In this document: piece after piece, positions 8,511 through 60,027 of the stretch
Numbering within the stretch: position 1 is the stretch's first letter
Layout of the letters: each line of letters starts with the position of its first letter
From: Rhodocaloribacter litoris
GTDB lineage: Bacteria > Bacteroidota > Rhodothermia > Rhodothermales > ISCAR-4553
Direction of reading: 5' to 3'
Length of the DNA: 64,000 nt
NCBI RefSeq assembly: GCF_011682235.2
Contig: NZ_CP076718.1
Coordinates: forward strand, 1,424,827 to 1,488,826
Position numbers and translations under genes: made by a program
The notes under the pieces: generated by a model
Seen by the model: the letters and a program-made list of their open reading frames with translations, nothing else
The model's database searches: none
Told to the model about the DNA's origin: nothing

Positions 8511-8727
8511 TACGAAATACGCACTATAGCGTTGGTCCATGCTATTGAAGGCGTCGTTGTGCAGCGCGATGTAGCCGCACCCTTCACGGGTGCGCCCCCT
8601 GGCCCACCGGAGAGCCCGGGCCGACGGGACGCGCAACGCGTCCCGGGACGCGACTACACGTGGGCCGTTCGCTAAGGGCAGCCATGCCCTCCATAACCAT
8701 GACCTCCGCTATACGAAATACGCACTA
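8511..8727. repeat. Intergenic element: 16-bp direct repeats enclosing palindromes
   Basis: TACGAAATACGCACTA occurs at 8511-8526 and again at 8712-8727. The second copy ends exactly on the stop codon of the ABC gene at 8725. Between them are two hairpins: CGCACCC/GGGTGCG (8576-8595) and CGGGACGCG-CAA-CGCGTCCCG (8626-8646). No credible ORF is present. The layout resembles a small non-autonomous or REP-type element. Confidence 0.5.
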
Positions 8728-10527
8728 CGATAACGCCGCAATCTCCTGTTCGAGCAGTTGCTTGCGGTAGAGGCCGGCGTAGAAGCCGTCCCGTTCGAGC
8801 AGCTCGGCGTGCGTGCCGCGCTCGACCACGCGCCCGTCTTCCAGCACGAGGATGAGGTCGGCGTCCTGCACGGCTGAGATCCGATGGCTGACGATCACGA
8901 TGGTACGGCGGCCGTAGTGGCGGCGCAGGTGTCCCAGGATGTTACGCTCGGTGTTCACGTCTACGGCCGAGAGGGCATCGTCGAGGATGAGCAGGCGCGG
9001 ATCGCGGACGAGGGCACGGGCAATGGACGTCCGCTGCTTCTGCCCCCCGGAAAGGGTGATGCCGCGCTCGCCCACGAACGTCTCGAAGCCCTTCGGGAAG
9101 TCGCGCACGTTCTCGAGCAGTTCGGCTTCGCGGGCCGCCTCCTCGATGGCCTCGGCCGGGGCGTCCATGTTGCCGAAGGCGATGTTGCCGGCCACCGTGT
9201 CGCTGAAGAGGAAGACCTCCTGTGGCACGTAGCCGATGTGCCGCCGCAACACCTCCAGCGGGATCGTCCGCACGTCGTGCCCGTCGATCTCGACGTACCC
9301 CTCGGTGGGATCGAGCAGGCGCGGGATCAGCTCGACCAGCGTGCTCTTGCCCGACCCCGTCCGCCCGACGACGGCCAGCGTGGCCCCCGCCGGCACCTCG
9401 AAGTCCACGTTCCGGAGCACCCAGGGACCGTCCGGTGTGTAGCGAAACGAGACGTTCCGGAAGGCGAGCGCCCCCTCGATGGATGTGATGCGAGGGTCCG
9501 TGCGCTCGTCGTCGGCCACCTCCGGGAGGGTGTCGAAGATGCGGTTGAGCCGGCTCATCGACGCCGAAGCCCGCTGCACCATCGTCGTCACGAACCCCAC
9601 CGAGGCGACGGGCCAGGTCATCAGCGCCACGTAGATGATGTACTCGGCAATGTTGCCCAGGGTGATGGCCCCGTCGACGACCAGCCGCCCGCCGGTCCAC
9701 ACGACGATGATGGTCGAAAGGCCGACGAGGATGAGAAAGACCGGCTCCCAGGCGGCCTCGACCCGGGTCAGGTCGAGCGTGCGGGCGCGGTAGCGGGCAC
9801 TCTCCTCCTCGAAGGCCCGGGCCTCGTCTTCCTCACGCGTGTACGCCTTGAGCACCCGGATGCCGGAGAGGGCCTCCTGCACCCGGCTCGTGAGCACGGA
9901 ATACTGCTGCTGCAGGGCGTCGCTGCGGCTGTGCACCATGCGGGCCACCAGAAAGACCGAAAGCGCCAGGAAGGGCATCGGGATGAGGGCAAAGAGCGTC
10001 AGGCGCGGCGAGATAATGAACATGGTGGTCATGGCCATCACCACCACCACGACAGCCCGCGTCACGTACATGATCGCCGGACCGATGTACCGGCGGACCT
10101 GCTCGATGTCGCTCGTGGCCCGGGTGATGAGGTCGCCCGTCGGATGACGCAGGTAAAAGCCGAAGGAGAGCGCCTGCAAATGCGCGTAGAGCTTGTTCCG
10201 CAGGTCGTACTCGATATGACGCGACGCCACGACGATGGTCTGCCGCATCAGAAACGAGAAAACGCCGCTGCACAGGCTCAGCAGCACGATCAGCACGCCG
10301 AAGAGCAGCAGGATCGCGAAGAAGACGGCATACAGATACCCCTGCACGGGTGAACCCCCGTAGACGTTGTAGAGGGCCACCATACGTGGGATGCCGTCGA
10401 CCGCCTGCCGGACGACGATGGGCACGACGATGGCGAAAGCCGCCGAGGCCATCGCACAGAGCAGGCCCGGGATGAAAAGATGCCGGTACTTCCAGTAGTA
10501 GTGATTGAGGCGAGCGAGCGGCCGCAT
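8725..10527 (-). CDS. ABC exporter half-transporter with degenerate catalytic site (BmrC/TM287-like subunit)
   Basis: About 600 residues from the ATG at 10527 (the frame is open to 10650, but the family starts near LNHYYWKYRHLFIPG). Six membrane helices precede a nucleotide-binding domain with Walker A GRTGSGKST (near 386), signature LSGGQKQR (near 491) and Walker B LLILDDALS (near 511), where Asp replaces the catalytic Glu. That loss, with an intact signature, marks the degenerate-site partner of a heterodimeric exporter; the complementary subunit is at 5575. The last codons lie in the 16-bp direct repeat of the intergenic element. Drug or lipid export at the inner membrane is inferred. Confidence 0.85.
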   Translation of the reverse strand: MRPLARLNHYYWKYRHLFIPGLLCAMASAAFAIVVPIVVRQAVDGIPRMVALYNVYGGSPVQGYLYAVFFAILLLFGVLIVLLSLCSGVFSFLMRQTIVVASRHIEYDLRNKLYAHLQALSFGFYLRHPTGDLITRATSDIEQVRRYIGPAIMYVTRAVVVVVMAMTTMFIISPRLTLFALIPMPFLALSVFLVARMVHSRSDALQQQYSVLTSRVQEALSGIRVLKAYTREEDEARAFEEESARYRARTLDLTRVEAAWEPVFLILVGLSTIIVVWTGGRLVVDGAITLGNIAEYIIYVALMTWPVASVGFVTTMVQRASASMSRLNRIFDTLPEVADDERTDPRITSIEGALAFRNVSFRYTPDGPWVLRNVDFEVPAGATLAVVGRTGSGKSTLVELIPRLLDPTEGYVEIDGHDVRTIPLEVLRRHIGYVPQEVFLFSDTVAGNIAFGNMDAPAEAIEEAAREAELLENVRDFPKGFETFVGERGITLSGGQKQRTSIARALVRDPRLLILDDALSAVDVNTERNILGHLRRHYGRRTIVIVSHRISAVQDADLILVLEDGRVVERGTHAELLERDGFYAGLYRKQLLEQEIAALS

Positions 10528-11752: not shown

Positions 11753-12177
11753 GCGGGCACCTCCGGGTCTTCGGCGTCGGCCCGTACGAGCCGGGCGAAC
11801 AGGTTGAGCGTGACGGTAGGTTCGGTGGTGGTGCCACCTTCCGGATCGGCGGGCACCGACACCTCCCCCAGGACCCGGCCGTCCTGCAGGATCCGCAGCG
11901 TCCCACGGTACCGGCGCTCCGGCGGCAGGGGGGCCAGCGTCACGATGGCCTGCACGATCCGCCGGTGGTTGCGCGCGCTGGGCGTAGGGAGGGCGTAGGC
12001 GTCGTCGTCGGCGTTGATGAAATTGCCGTGCCGGCGCATCACCAGCACGTTCTGGCCGCGTAACACGGCCGTATCGGCCTCCCACAGGCGGAACTCATAG
12101 GAGCCCGGCTGGGCAAAGCCGGAGAGCACCTCGGCAAAGAGCACCCCGCCGTCCGGATCGAAAGGGATATGGTCCAT
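11749..12177 (-). CDS. Unknown 142-residue protein, translationally coupled to the secreted protein
   Basis: 142 residues, no signal peptide and no membrane helix. The sequence alternates short predicted strands (GSYEFRLWEAD, RRIVQAIVTLAPL, YRGTLRILQDGRVLGEVSVP), suggesting a small all-beta fold. No family is recognised. Its TGA overlaps the ATG of the next gene by 4 bp, so the two are made together; one may be cytosolic and the other exported. A Nudix gene lies 49 bp upstream in the same orientation and may share the transcript. Confidence 0.6.
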   Translation of the reverse strand: MDHIPFDPDGGVLFAEVLSGFAQPGSYEFRLWEADTAVLRGQNVLVMRRHGNFINADDDAYALPTPSARNHRRIVQAIVTLAPLPPERRYRGTLRILQDGRVLGEVSVPADPEGGTTTEPTVTLNLFARLVRADAEDPEVPA

Positions 12178-58177: not shown

Positions 58178-58278
58178 GACCTGACCGGCGAACGGCCCGT
58201 AGCGCTCCCCCACATCCCTTGGCAACTACGAAGGCAGCCGGTATGGACGCGTCACGCGTCCAGATCGCCGGTCAGGTC
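58178..58278. repeat. Nested inverted repeat (outer arms 14 bp, inner palindrome)
   Basis: GACCTGACCGGCGA (58178-58191) and its exact complement TCGCCGGTCAGGTC (58265-58278) enclose 73 bp containing the palindrome TGGACGCG-TCA-CGCGTCCA (58244-58262). An A-run precedes and TTTT follows, so it could act as a bidirectional terminator between the membrane protein and CusF-like genes, or be a mobile palindromic element. Confidence 0.7.
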
Positions 58279-58305
58279 TTTTCAAGGACAACGGAGAAGG
58301 CCGCA

Positions 58306-58677
58306 TTATTCCCGCACCTTCTCGATACGGCGAACATAGACCCGGTCGTTTTCGACGATGAGGTCGAAGCGCACCCGGTCCCCCCGCGCGATGCCCGCGA
58401 CGAGGGTCGTGTCGTGCAGGGCGAAGGGCATGGTCATGGCATCCATGAAGCCGGGGATGGCCTCGTGTTCGATGACGATGAAGTCCCGGCTCGGGGTGAT
58501 GTTTCGGACTACGCCGGTGGCCTCGTAGGTTTGCCCGACGGCTTCGGCCACGGCGGTATCGGCGGAGACCGCCGCGCCCCGGTCTGACGAAGGCGTTCCG
58601 GCCGGCTCCCGCGCACACCCGGCGAGCACCAGGCCGGCCAGGAGCCAGTACCACCTGCTTTTCGTCCGGCACCTCAT
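58306..58677 (-). CDS. CusF-like copper-binding lipoprotein
   Basis: 123 residues from ATG 58677. The signal has lipobox LAGC (Cys near 21). The rest is an OB-fold with GVVRNITPSRDFIVIEHEAIPGFMDAMTMPFAL and GIARGDRVRFDLIVENDRVYVRRIE, matching the copper-binding domain of CusF and related periplasmic proteins (His and the Met residues of AMTM are the usual Cu ligands; the Trp seen in E. coli CusF is not at the same place). It would hold or deliver copper in the periplasm. No efflux pump is in the window. Confidence 0.82.
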   Translation of the reverse strand: MRCRTKSRWYWLLAGLVLAGCAREPAGTPSSDRGAAVSADTAVAEAVGQTYEATGVVRNITPSRDFIVIEHEAIPGFMDAMTMPFALHDTTLVAGIARGDRVRFDLIVENDRVYVRRIEKVRE

Positions 58678-58813
58678 GGATGATCCGTGATCCGGGCAGC
58701 GAGAGCACACACAGGGTTGGGTTGCCCCGTCCCCGCCCGGCGTTACACGAGGGGGTCGGCGGCCGCGTCCCGGACGGGCAGGGTGATGTCCCATCGCCCG
58801 GCAGCCCATCAAG

Positions 58814-58842
58814 CTGGGTGGCCGCGTCACGCGGCCACCCAG
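58814..58842. repeat. Perfect palindrome overlapping a stop codon (REP-like)
   Basis: Arms CTGGGTGGCCGCG and CGCGGCCACCCAG (13 bp) around loop TCA. On the minus strand the loop is the TGA stop of the SH3-cysteine hydrolase gene and the arm encodes its last residues. It is related to the palindromes at 58244, 58963 and 8626. Confidence 0.85.
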
Positions 58843-59762
58843 AACCCGAAGGCACGGAACCGGGTGGAGGTCCACCAGACGGGGGTGCCGTAACGAAAGT
58901 TGGTGCGGCCTGCCTGGCTCTGCAGCGGTGCACGCACGATGGGCGTGGTGCCATCGCCTTCTCGGACGCGTGACGCGTCCGGTTCCCGCCGTGCCCGGTG
59001 ACCGTTACGCTCGGGCACGACCACGCAGATGTGCCCCGAAAAGTTGAGGTTCCTGCGCTGGGCACAGATGAGCCCGATGCCCCCCGCATTGGCAGCCTCC
59101 TGCAACGTCGTCAGGTCAAAGACCCGTTTCCATCCGAACTGCGGGCCGAAGTCGTCCAGCCAGTCGTAGAGGCTGTTCGCGTTGAGTTCGTGGATCGTCT
59201 CGCCGTAGCGCGGGATGACCTCCCGGCCCGCCGCCAGCGCCGCGATGGCTCCCGGGCGCCACCACACCCGGGGCAGATAGACCCCGGCCAGGTAGCAGTA
59301 GTCGCAGGCATAGATGTTGCAAAACGTGGTGGCCGCCTTCGGCAGGTAGCGCACCCGGCGCTCGACGTCGAGCCACGCCACGATGCCCCCCAGGTCGGCG
59401 GCCTGCTCGGCGGGGGTGGCACGGGGGCGGCGGGAGGGACGGGGCGTCTCACCCAGCGGAAAGGCCCGCCCGCCGTCACGGTCGCGTGTGATGTCCGGGC
59501 GGTTCTCGGCCAGGTGCACCGCCGAGATGGCCTGCCGGGGCGGCGGCACGGTGAAATCCGCGAGCGGCGTGAGGAAACGATGCGCGACGAACCCTTCGAG
59601 CCGGCTTCCCCGGAAGTTCGTTGCCACCTTCCACCAGCCGCCGCCGGCATCTTCCAGCCGGGTCACTTCGTGCCCGTGCGGCAGCACCGCAAGACGCGTC
59701 GCCGCACGGACGACCGGCTCCGAGCGCAGGTTCAGGGCACTGGCTTCCACTTTGAATTGCAT
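58827..59762 (-). CDS. SH3-domain protein with cysteine amidohydrolase-like (CHAP/NlpC-type) domain
   Basis: 311 residues from ATG 59762. An SH3-like domain (about 1-66; ALNLRSEP ... GGWWKVATN) is followed by a catalytic domain with Cys148 in TTFCNIYACDYCYLAG and His244 in SGHICVVVPE, the Cys-His order of CHAP/NlpC peptidoglycan amidohydrolases and phage endolysins. There is no signal peptide. The protein includes PDASRVRE encoded by an in-frame palindrome (58963-58981), and it ends in the palindrome at 58814. It is followed by the CusF-like gene. Cell-wall or phage-derived hydrolase is the likely role. Confidence 0.7.
   Translation of the reverse strand: MQFKVEASALNLRSEPVVRAATRLAVLPHGHEVTRLEDAGGGWWKVATNFRGSRLEGFVAHRFLTPLADFTVPPPRQAISAVHLAENRPDITRDRDGGRAFPLGETPRPSRRPRATPAEQAADLGGIVAWLDVERRVRYLPKAATTFCNIYACDYCYLAGVYLPRVWWRPGAIAALAAGREVIPRYGETIHELNANSLYDWLDDFGPQFGWKRVFDLTTLQEAANAGGIGLICAQRRNLNFSGHICVVVPERNGHRARREPDASRVREGDGTTPIVRAPLQSQAGRTNFRYGTPVWWTSTRFRAFGFWVAA
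58963..58981. repeat. REP-like palindrome inside a coding region
   Basis: CGGACGCG-TGA-CGCGTCCG. It lies in frame within the SH3-cysteine hydrolase gene and shares the GGACGCG/CGCGTCC core with the copy at 58244. A degenerate relative is at 59778-59796, just upstream of the same gene. Confidence 0.8.
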
Positions 59763-60027
59763 GGGCGGGAGAGCTATGGACCGCGTGACACGGCCTGCGT
59801 GAGCGGATGAGGTGAATCCTCCCAGCACAGCATGGATTACGGCCGGTATGCCCGCCACGACTCGATGGCGCTCCGGTTGTCGAAATCCAGATCAGGGATG
59901 CTCCATGATACGCAATTGCCTGCTCCCGAACACAAAAAAAACCAGCGTGATGCGTATGGCGCCGAATATTTCACGCCCTGGAGTTCGGGGCGAGCGTGCG
60001 TGCCCCGGGCATGCCCCGCGGCCGGCC

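Follow-up and report, generated by a model that had tools for sequence, protein, structure and literature searches.

Palindromes of about 18 bp as probable mobile units in Rhodocaloribacter litoris and in phage-like DNA

Introduction

We propose that related hairpins of about 18 bp in the genome of Rhodocaloribacter litoris are probably ultra-short mobile palindromes, which have been copied to many places in the genome and to phage-like DNA that another family of the order also carries. That the palindromes are insertions is strongly supported by the alignments of paralogous and related DNA. Single units were inserted precisely and without target duplication, reading frames tolerated them (18 nt equals six codons), some lie nested at the centers of other palindromes, and their arms change together. 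The genome (G000 in our set) is one contig of 4,502,320 bases; the window is the whole stretch of 64,000 nt that was analyzed initially.

Results

Palindromes in the window

The window contains the following features.

58244 to 58262, plus strand: palindrome TGGACGCG-TCA-CGCGTCCA with 8-bp arms and a TCA loop, located within the loop of a terminator-like stem that separates two convergent genes.
58178 to 58278, no strand assigned: terminator-like stem with arms at 58178-58191 and 58265-58278 (14 bp, 100% complementary), an A run on the 5' side and a T run on the 3' side, the palindrome in its loop.
58814 to 58842, plus strand: palindrome with 13-bp arms and a GGCCGCGTCACGCGGCC core, whose minus strand gives the final codons and TGA of the SH3 gene.
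58963 to 58981, minus strand: palindrome in the SH3 gene with a TGA loop, read as PDASRVR.
59779 to 59795, plus strand: degenerate GGCCGYGTNACRCGGCC copy with one mismatch, close to the 5' end of the SH3 gene.
12054 to 12070, minus strand: exact GGCCGCGTAACACGGCC copy inside the open frame WEAD-TAVLRGQ-NVLV, absent from the original prediction.
8625 to 8645, plus strand: CAA-loop palindrome with 9-bp arms inside a copy of a ~190-bp intergenic repeat (8525-8713).
58827 to 59858, minus strand: SH3_3-domain gene (PF08239) containing two palindromes, given as the longest ATG/GTG/TTG frame.

The hairpins that had been predicted at 58244, 58814, 58963 and 8625 (given as 8626) were all found as described, and the degenerate copy placed at 59778 is the one-mismatch GGCCGYGTNACRCGGCC listed above. 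The 58244 palindrome, which is without an empty counterpart, has a folding energy of -9.2 kcal/mol as single-stranded DNA. An Rfam scan of the window gave zero matches at the gathering threshold. The GGACGCG form was only weakly above chance in the window (4 matches versus a shuffle mean of 1.48; 6 of 100 shuffles reached 4), and the GGCCG form was clearly above it (5 matches versus a mean of 0.45; none of 100 shuffles reached 5).

We compared the SH3 protein with seven orthologues (39-55% identity). According to this alignment, the true start of the gene is probably nearer 59760 than the start of the longest frame. A stretch of ~10 residues at the 58963 copy was absent from all seven orthologues; the palindrome itself encodes six residues, compared with the eight in the original prediction. 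The 58814 copy does hold the stop codon, as had been claimed. The protein nevertheless ends at the same alignment column as six of the seven orthologues (for the seventh, L027, the alignment is poor in this part); therefore, no extension by this copy is demonstrated. No change in length is seen at this copy, and the data would be compatible with an insertion. Among 59 further genomes from the order, none matched the SH3 gene, whereas its orthologues occur in other phyla, suggesting that it was probably acquired horizontally.

Copy number and distribution

We counted the palindromes genome-wide against mirrored patterns as controls. At two mismatches or fewer, GGACGCGTSACGCGTCC occurred at 97 sites versus 1 for its mirrored pattern, which is far from chance and answers the count proposed in the original prediction. 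GGACGCGNNNCGCGTCC, GGCCGYGTNACRCGGCC and GCCGAACGATCGTTCGGC occurred at 61, 38 and 6 sites, respectively, versus 0 for each mirrored pattern. Chance origin is ruled out by the mirrored and shuffled controls, although the GGACGCG count of the window would be insufficient for this on its own. Generic hairpins with a 3-nt loop were not enriched in 464 kb (20 versus 16.8 per Markov sequence), which rules out a general hairpin excess and indicates that the excess belongs to this palindrome family. We coined the labels F1 (GGACGCGNNNCGCGTCC), F2 (GGCCGYGTNACRCGGCC), F3 (GCCGAACGATCGTTCGGC), F4 (GCGGCGYGTACRCGCCGC), F5 (GGCGATGTATGATCGCC), F6 (TCGACGCGTACGCGTCGA) and F7 (CGGACGTGTGCACGTCCG).

Of 112 cells in the two variable stem pairs of 56 copies with the fixed F1/F2 letters, 102 were complementary, indicating that pairing is maintained while the letters vary. 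Most differences between F1 and F2 fall on every third base; therefore, both can be read as GRVTRP in one frame on either strand, and this common reading may be due to chance. Nearly all CAA-loop copies of F1 that were listed lie within the ~190-bp intergenic repeat, which combines a GTAG-flanked hairpin with the CAA-loop palindrome. About thirty copies of this repeat in the R. litoris genome carry the palindrome, and at least one is present in G008 (locus L135), a genome from another family of the same order. At 10200-10450 of locus L110 and at similar places, we observed a further noncoding repeat, CCTCCCCATGCGAAGCGACGGAGGGG, whose indels measure 16 nt.

The palindrome set is nearly private to R. 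litoris. F1 was found in 6 of 60 genomes, including R. litoris and G008, with one site in each of the others, and F3 was found in 2 of the 60, R. litoris and G008. The F1/F2 pattern occurred in 7 of 394 genomes (57 sites in R. litoris, 6 in G008 and one in each of the other five), which rules out a spread throughout the phylum. We found no earlier report of this palindrome family in the open-licence literature that was searched.

Empty sites and unit length

We aligned 1,214,526 bases of the genome to itself and collected insertion loci with a flank identity of at least 72%. The aligned DNA was partly selected around palindromes; therefore, the following counts are not genome-wide rates. Among 83 insertion loci, the net insert was exactly 18 nt in 27 and 36 nt in 2, and these numbers were unchanged after a motif filter removed 33 CAA-repeat rows and left 50. 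Perfect arms of at least 6 were present in 21 of the 29 inserts of 18 or 36 nt, compared with 3.4% of random 26-mers and 2 of the 14 inserts that had a different length. Five of the remaining eight were F4, which has one G-T stem pair, and another, at 3684506, was no palindrome of this set.

After shared events were merged, 25 independent palindrome-bearing loci had an empty paralogous counterpart. The modal net length of these clusters was 18 in 16 cases and 36 in one, an 18-mer nested within an 18-mer; the rest measured 15, 19, 20 (three clusters), 21, 23 and 27. No target-site duplication was found in the clean cases of the paralogous or G008 alignments. F4 was inserted at CCTC^GAAC with identical flanks in a tnpB gene (358703), at ACATA^ATAGG (1089932) and at 1237179, in each case without duplication, and the site at 2337093 of G008 (GGAT^CATG) was likewise clean. 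Several different palindromes showed alike insertion behavior.

These results bear on two explanations that require no mobile unit. The hairpins could be protein-binding or terminator structures that local mutation produced and selection maintained, in line with the covarying arms and with the position of the 58244 copy inside a terminator-like stem. This is contradicted by empty sites with near-identical flanks, by in-frame inserts in genes and by presence or absence between two genomes, and we consider it highly improbable. The inserts could also have been templated, through slippage during replication or through template switching primed at a hairpin, and completed by fold-back copying, with no dedicated enzyme. 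The arms that stay complementary despite sequence variation, the nesting in hairpins, the somewhat variable lengths and the failure to find a Y1 transposase would all suit such a process. However, slippage predicts broad lengths and local templates, whereas one length dominates and identical sequences recur at distant sites; we regard this explanation as improbable.

Nesting in other palindromes

If the palindromes are mobile, other palindromes are among their targets. The empty site lay at most 4 nt from the center of a palindrome whose arms measure 8 or more in 8 of 40 rows and 4 of 25 clusters, compared with 0.4% of 20,000 random positions. F1 was located inside F3 at 2668220 and 3313298. 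For F2, the sites 1089795, 3038240 and 3134423 were within other palindromes, and the insert of 36 nt at 1236552 was, as read by eye, F7 inside F4. Some loci, not all, had the insertion within GCCGAACGATCGTTCGGC and GGCCGCGTNACGCGGCC. The targets of the nested cases are partly palindromes of the same family, which we counted against the proposal of mobile palindromes.

Copies in coding sequence

The host gene usually stays readable after insertion. We read 17 of the 18 tnpB genes in the genome; six-residue inserts (KGRVTR) were present at one site in three genes, and one gene had such an insert at a second site. The same tnpB site was filled in two divergent tnpB groups; gene conversion may therefore connect some of the insertion clusters. 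Two of the 18 tnpB genes have short open frames, and no Y1 tnpA gene is present in the genome. A protein that we take to be DUF4175-like was longer at its copy by six residues than the homologues of G006 and G009, by seven than that of G008 and by three than that of G007. Similarly, a presumably MenE-like ligase had more residues at its copy than those relatives that could be aligned at the site (the L143 row is unaligned). We counted the inserts of both proteins among the in-frame inserts of six residues. In a phage-type integrase, a family-2 glycosyltransferase and a BatA/VWA protein, the frame likewise continues through the copy, as read from the R. litoris sequence itself.

Two Mutator-type transposase genes appear, by eye, to be broken by copies of 17 nt and ~20 nt that shift the frame. 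Some copies outside intact genes had a net length of 17, 20 or 21 nt; selection for the reading frame therefore plausibly sharpens the 18-nt peak among inserts in genes. A mainly extragenic location is a feature of REPs. A crude coding score, too noisy to serve as evidence on this point, left out 31 of 125 sites (CAA type) and classified 56 as noncoding, 9 as coding in frame, 21 as coding on either side but with best frames that disagree, and 8 as coding on one side.

A phage-like island common to two bacterial families

The DNA of G008 is ~89% identical over 4.6 kb to the R. litoris genome at 549-554 kb. We called this island phage-like because it encodes an endolysin and a replication-initiation-like protein according to PHROGs. 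The island copies of two bacterial families, at locus L133 of G008 and at 549-556 kb of R. litoris, differ by palindromes. In G008, additional F3 copies stand at 2337093 and 2335764, together with an additional F2 at 2339547, an F2 nested in an F2 common to both genomes at 2337449, and a 36-nt insert at 2338396 that we read as F2 nested in F3. R. litoris, in turn, carries at 553541 an F2 that is missing from G008 and, at 553783, an F2 nested in an F3 that G008 also has. Thus, presence and absence run in both directions. The comparison also holds other indels, such as coding repeats of 12 and 15 nt; therefore, not all gaps are palindromes, and the 18-nt counts between the two genomes include some non-palindromic indels and one event split in two.

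Among viral contigs, GGACGCGTNACGCGTCC matched 0, GGCCGTGTNACACGGCC 1, GCCGAACGATCGTTCGGC 9 and GCGGCGYGTACRCGCCGC 10, with one site each. A free-phage vector was rejected on these counts, which we took, by judgement, to be near chance. Phage records covered ~3% of the G008 island used as query among the matches listed, and this part was an endolysin or lysozyme gene where annotated.

Search for a mobilizing enzyme

The original prediction described a REP-type repeat that had invaded a coding region and proposed looking for a REP-associated transposase. Dispersal, abundance, invasion of genes and empty sites agree with that description; the transposase and a constant tag do not. A profile search with PF01797 (Y1_Tnp) gave 0 matches in R. 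litoris and 0 in G008, the sole other genome with several copies, and the same profile matched 16 of 60 genomes of the order as well as E. coli. Hence a Y1/RAYT mobilizer was rejected for both genomes on the basis of PF01797, and a resident RAYT/IS200 transposase visible to this model is not the mobilizer today. In 1.21 Mb, inspection of the copy flanks by eye revealed no constant GTAG/CGTC end tag and preferences for T and AAG alone. Filled and empty sites are distinguished by one 18-nt hairpin, or by 36 nt with one hairpin nested in another, not by the inverted REP pair that makes up a REPIN. The 18-nt inserts resemble SDR5 as units of ~20 bp precisely inserted in a palindromic site, and they share with Rickettsia palindromic elements the insertion in frame, not the size of ~150 bp. 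As neither tag nor RAYT was found, we filed the repeats as small mobile palindromes and not as REPs.

The palindromes could still be true GTAG/CGTC REPs that were once moved by a RAYT or an IS200-type Y1 enzyme since lost, with the tnpB genes lacking tnpA as its remnant. Small hairpins, some of them intragenic and stop-supplying, are described for REPs in PMC3733652; moreover, 18 tnpB genes without a Y1 gene are present in the genome, and in the CAA repeat GTAG adjoins a hairpin. Against this, PF01797 is absent from both multi-copy genomes, the 16 genomes that bear it hold at most one GGACGCG palindrome each, the constant tag is missing, and the inserts are single 18-nt units rather than doublets. 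We therefore consider such an origin unlikely.

Discussion

No recognizable Y1 transposase (IS200/RAYT) of R. litoris is the mobilizing enzyme of the proposed mobile palindromes; the enzyme may have gone unrecognized, may have been lost or may be carried by a phage. The unit would move as a folded single strand, and an enzyme supplied in trans would place it into single-stranded DNA. Hairpin tips or nearby positions would be the preferred targets, with tip preference as the presumed cause. Inserts that break the frame would be removed by selection, sharpening the 18-nt peak in genes.

The closest analogues are SDR5, intragenic CGTC REPs and Rickettsia palindromic elements (RPEs). SDR5 are said to be very small mobile repeated elements of cyanobacteria, reportedly described by Elhai and colleagues in 2008, and their host phylum presumably differs from that of R. 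litoris. In the portion of PMC4390886 consulted, SDR5 inserts precisely within the palindrome HIP1, between nucleotides 3 and 4, and no mobilizer is named. The likeness, as judged by description, lies in the very small size and the precise insertion inside a palindrome.

CGTC REPs are described by Di Nocera et al. (2013, PMC3733652) as having 8-9 bp stems, intragenic copies, repeat-supplied stop codons and no dedicated transposase. Short stems, intragenic copies and repeat-supplied stop codons are thus shared with the CGTC/GTAG REPs, as is, for the CGTC type, the lack of a dedicated transposase. However, the palindromes reported here have neither constant end tag nor RAYT, and they differ in the smaller unit, the 18-nt net inserts and the nesting at centers. 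REPINs are also palindromic and dispersed in one genome; yet, as described in PMC3116915, they are RAYT-linked inverted doublets, whereas ours are single hairpins for which no RAYT was found. Rickettsia palindromic elements are likewise palindromic and in frame in unrelated genes, but measure ~150 bp (PMC10969869), compared with ~18 bp here.

More tentatively, and with some doubt on our part, the palindromes might form a distinct class of ultra-short mobile DNA. Its members would be self-complementary units of ~18 bp with unrelated-looking sequences that have one size and one insertion mode (no target duplication, preference for hairpin tips), are moved by a non-Y1 enzyme, travel between bacteria on phage-like DNA and serve as six-codon protein linkers.

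If a hairpin of 18 bp moves as a unit, the smallest possible mobile element would be near the footprint of one protein in size. Islands that differ by such insertions would offer a direct route to the enzyme and a route to deciding whether frame selection or the machinery sets the length. The spread of REP-like repeats in genomes without RAYT would, if the proposal is true, become a question again.
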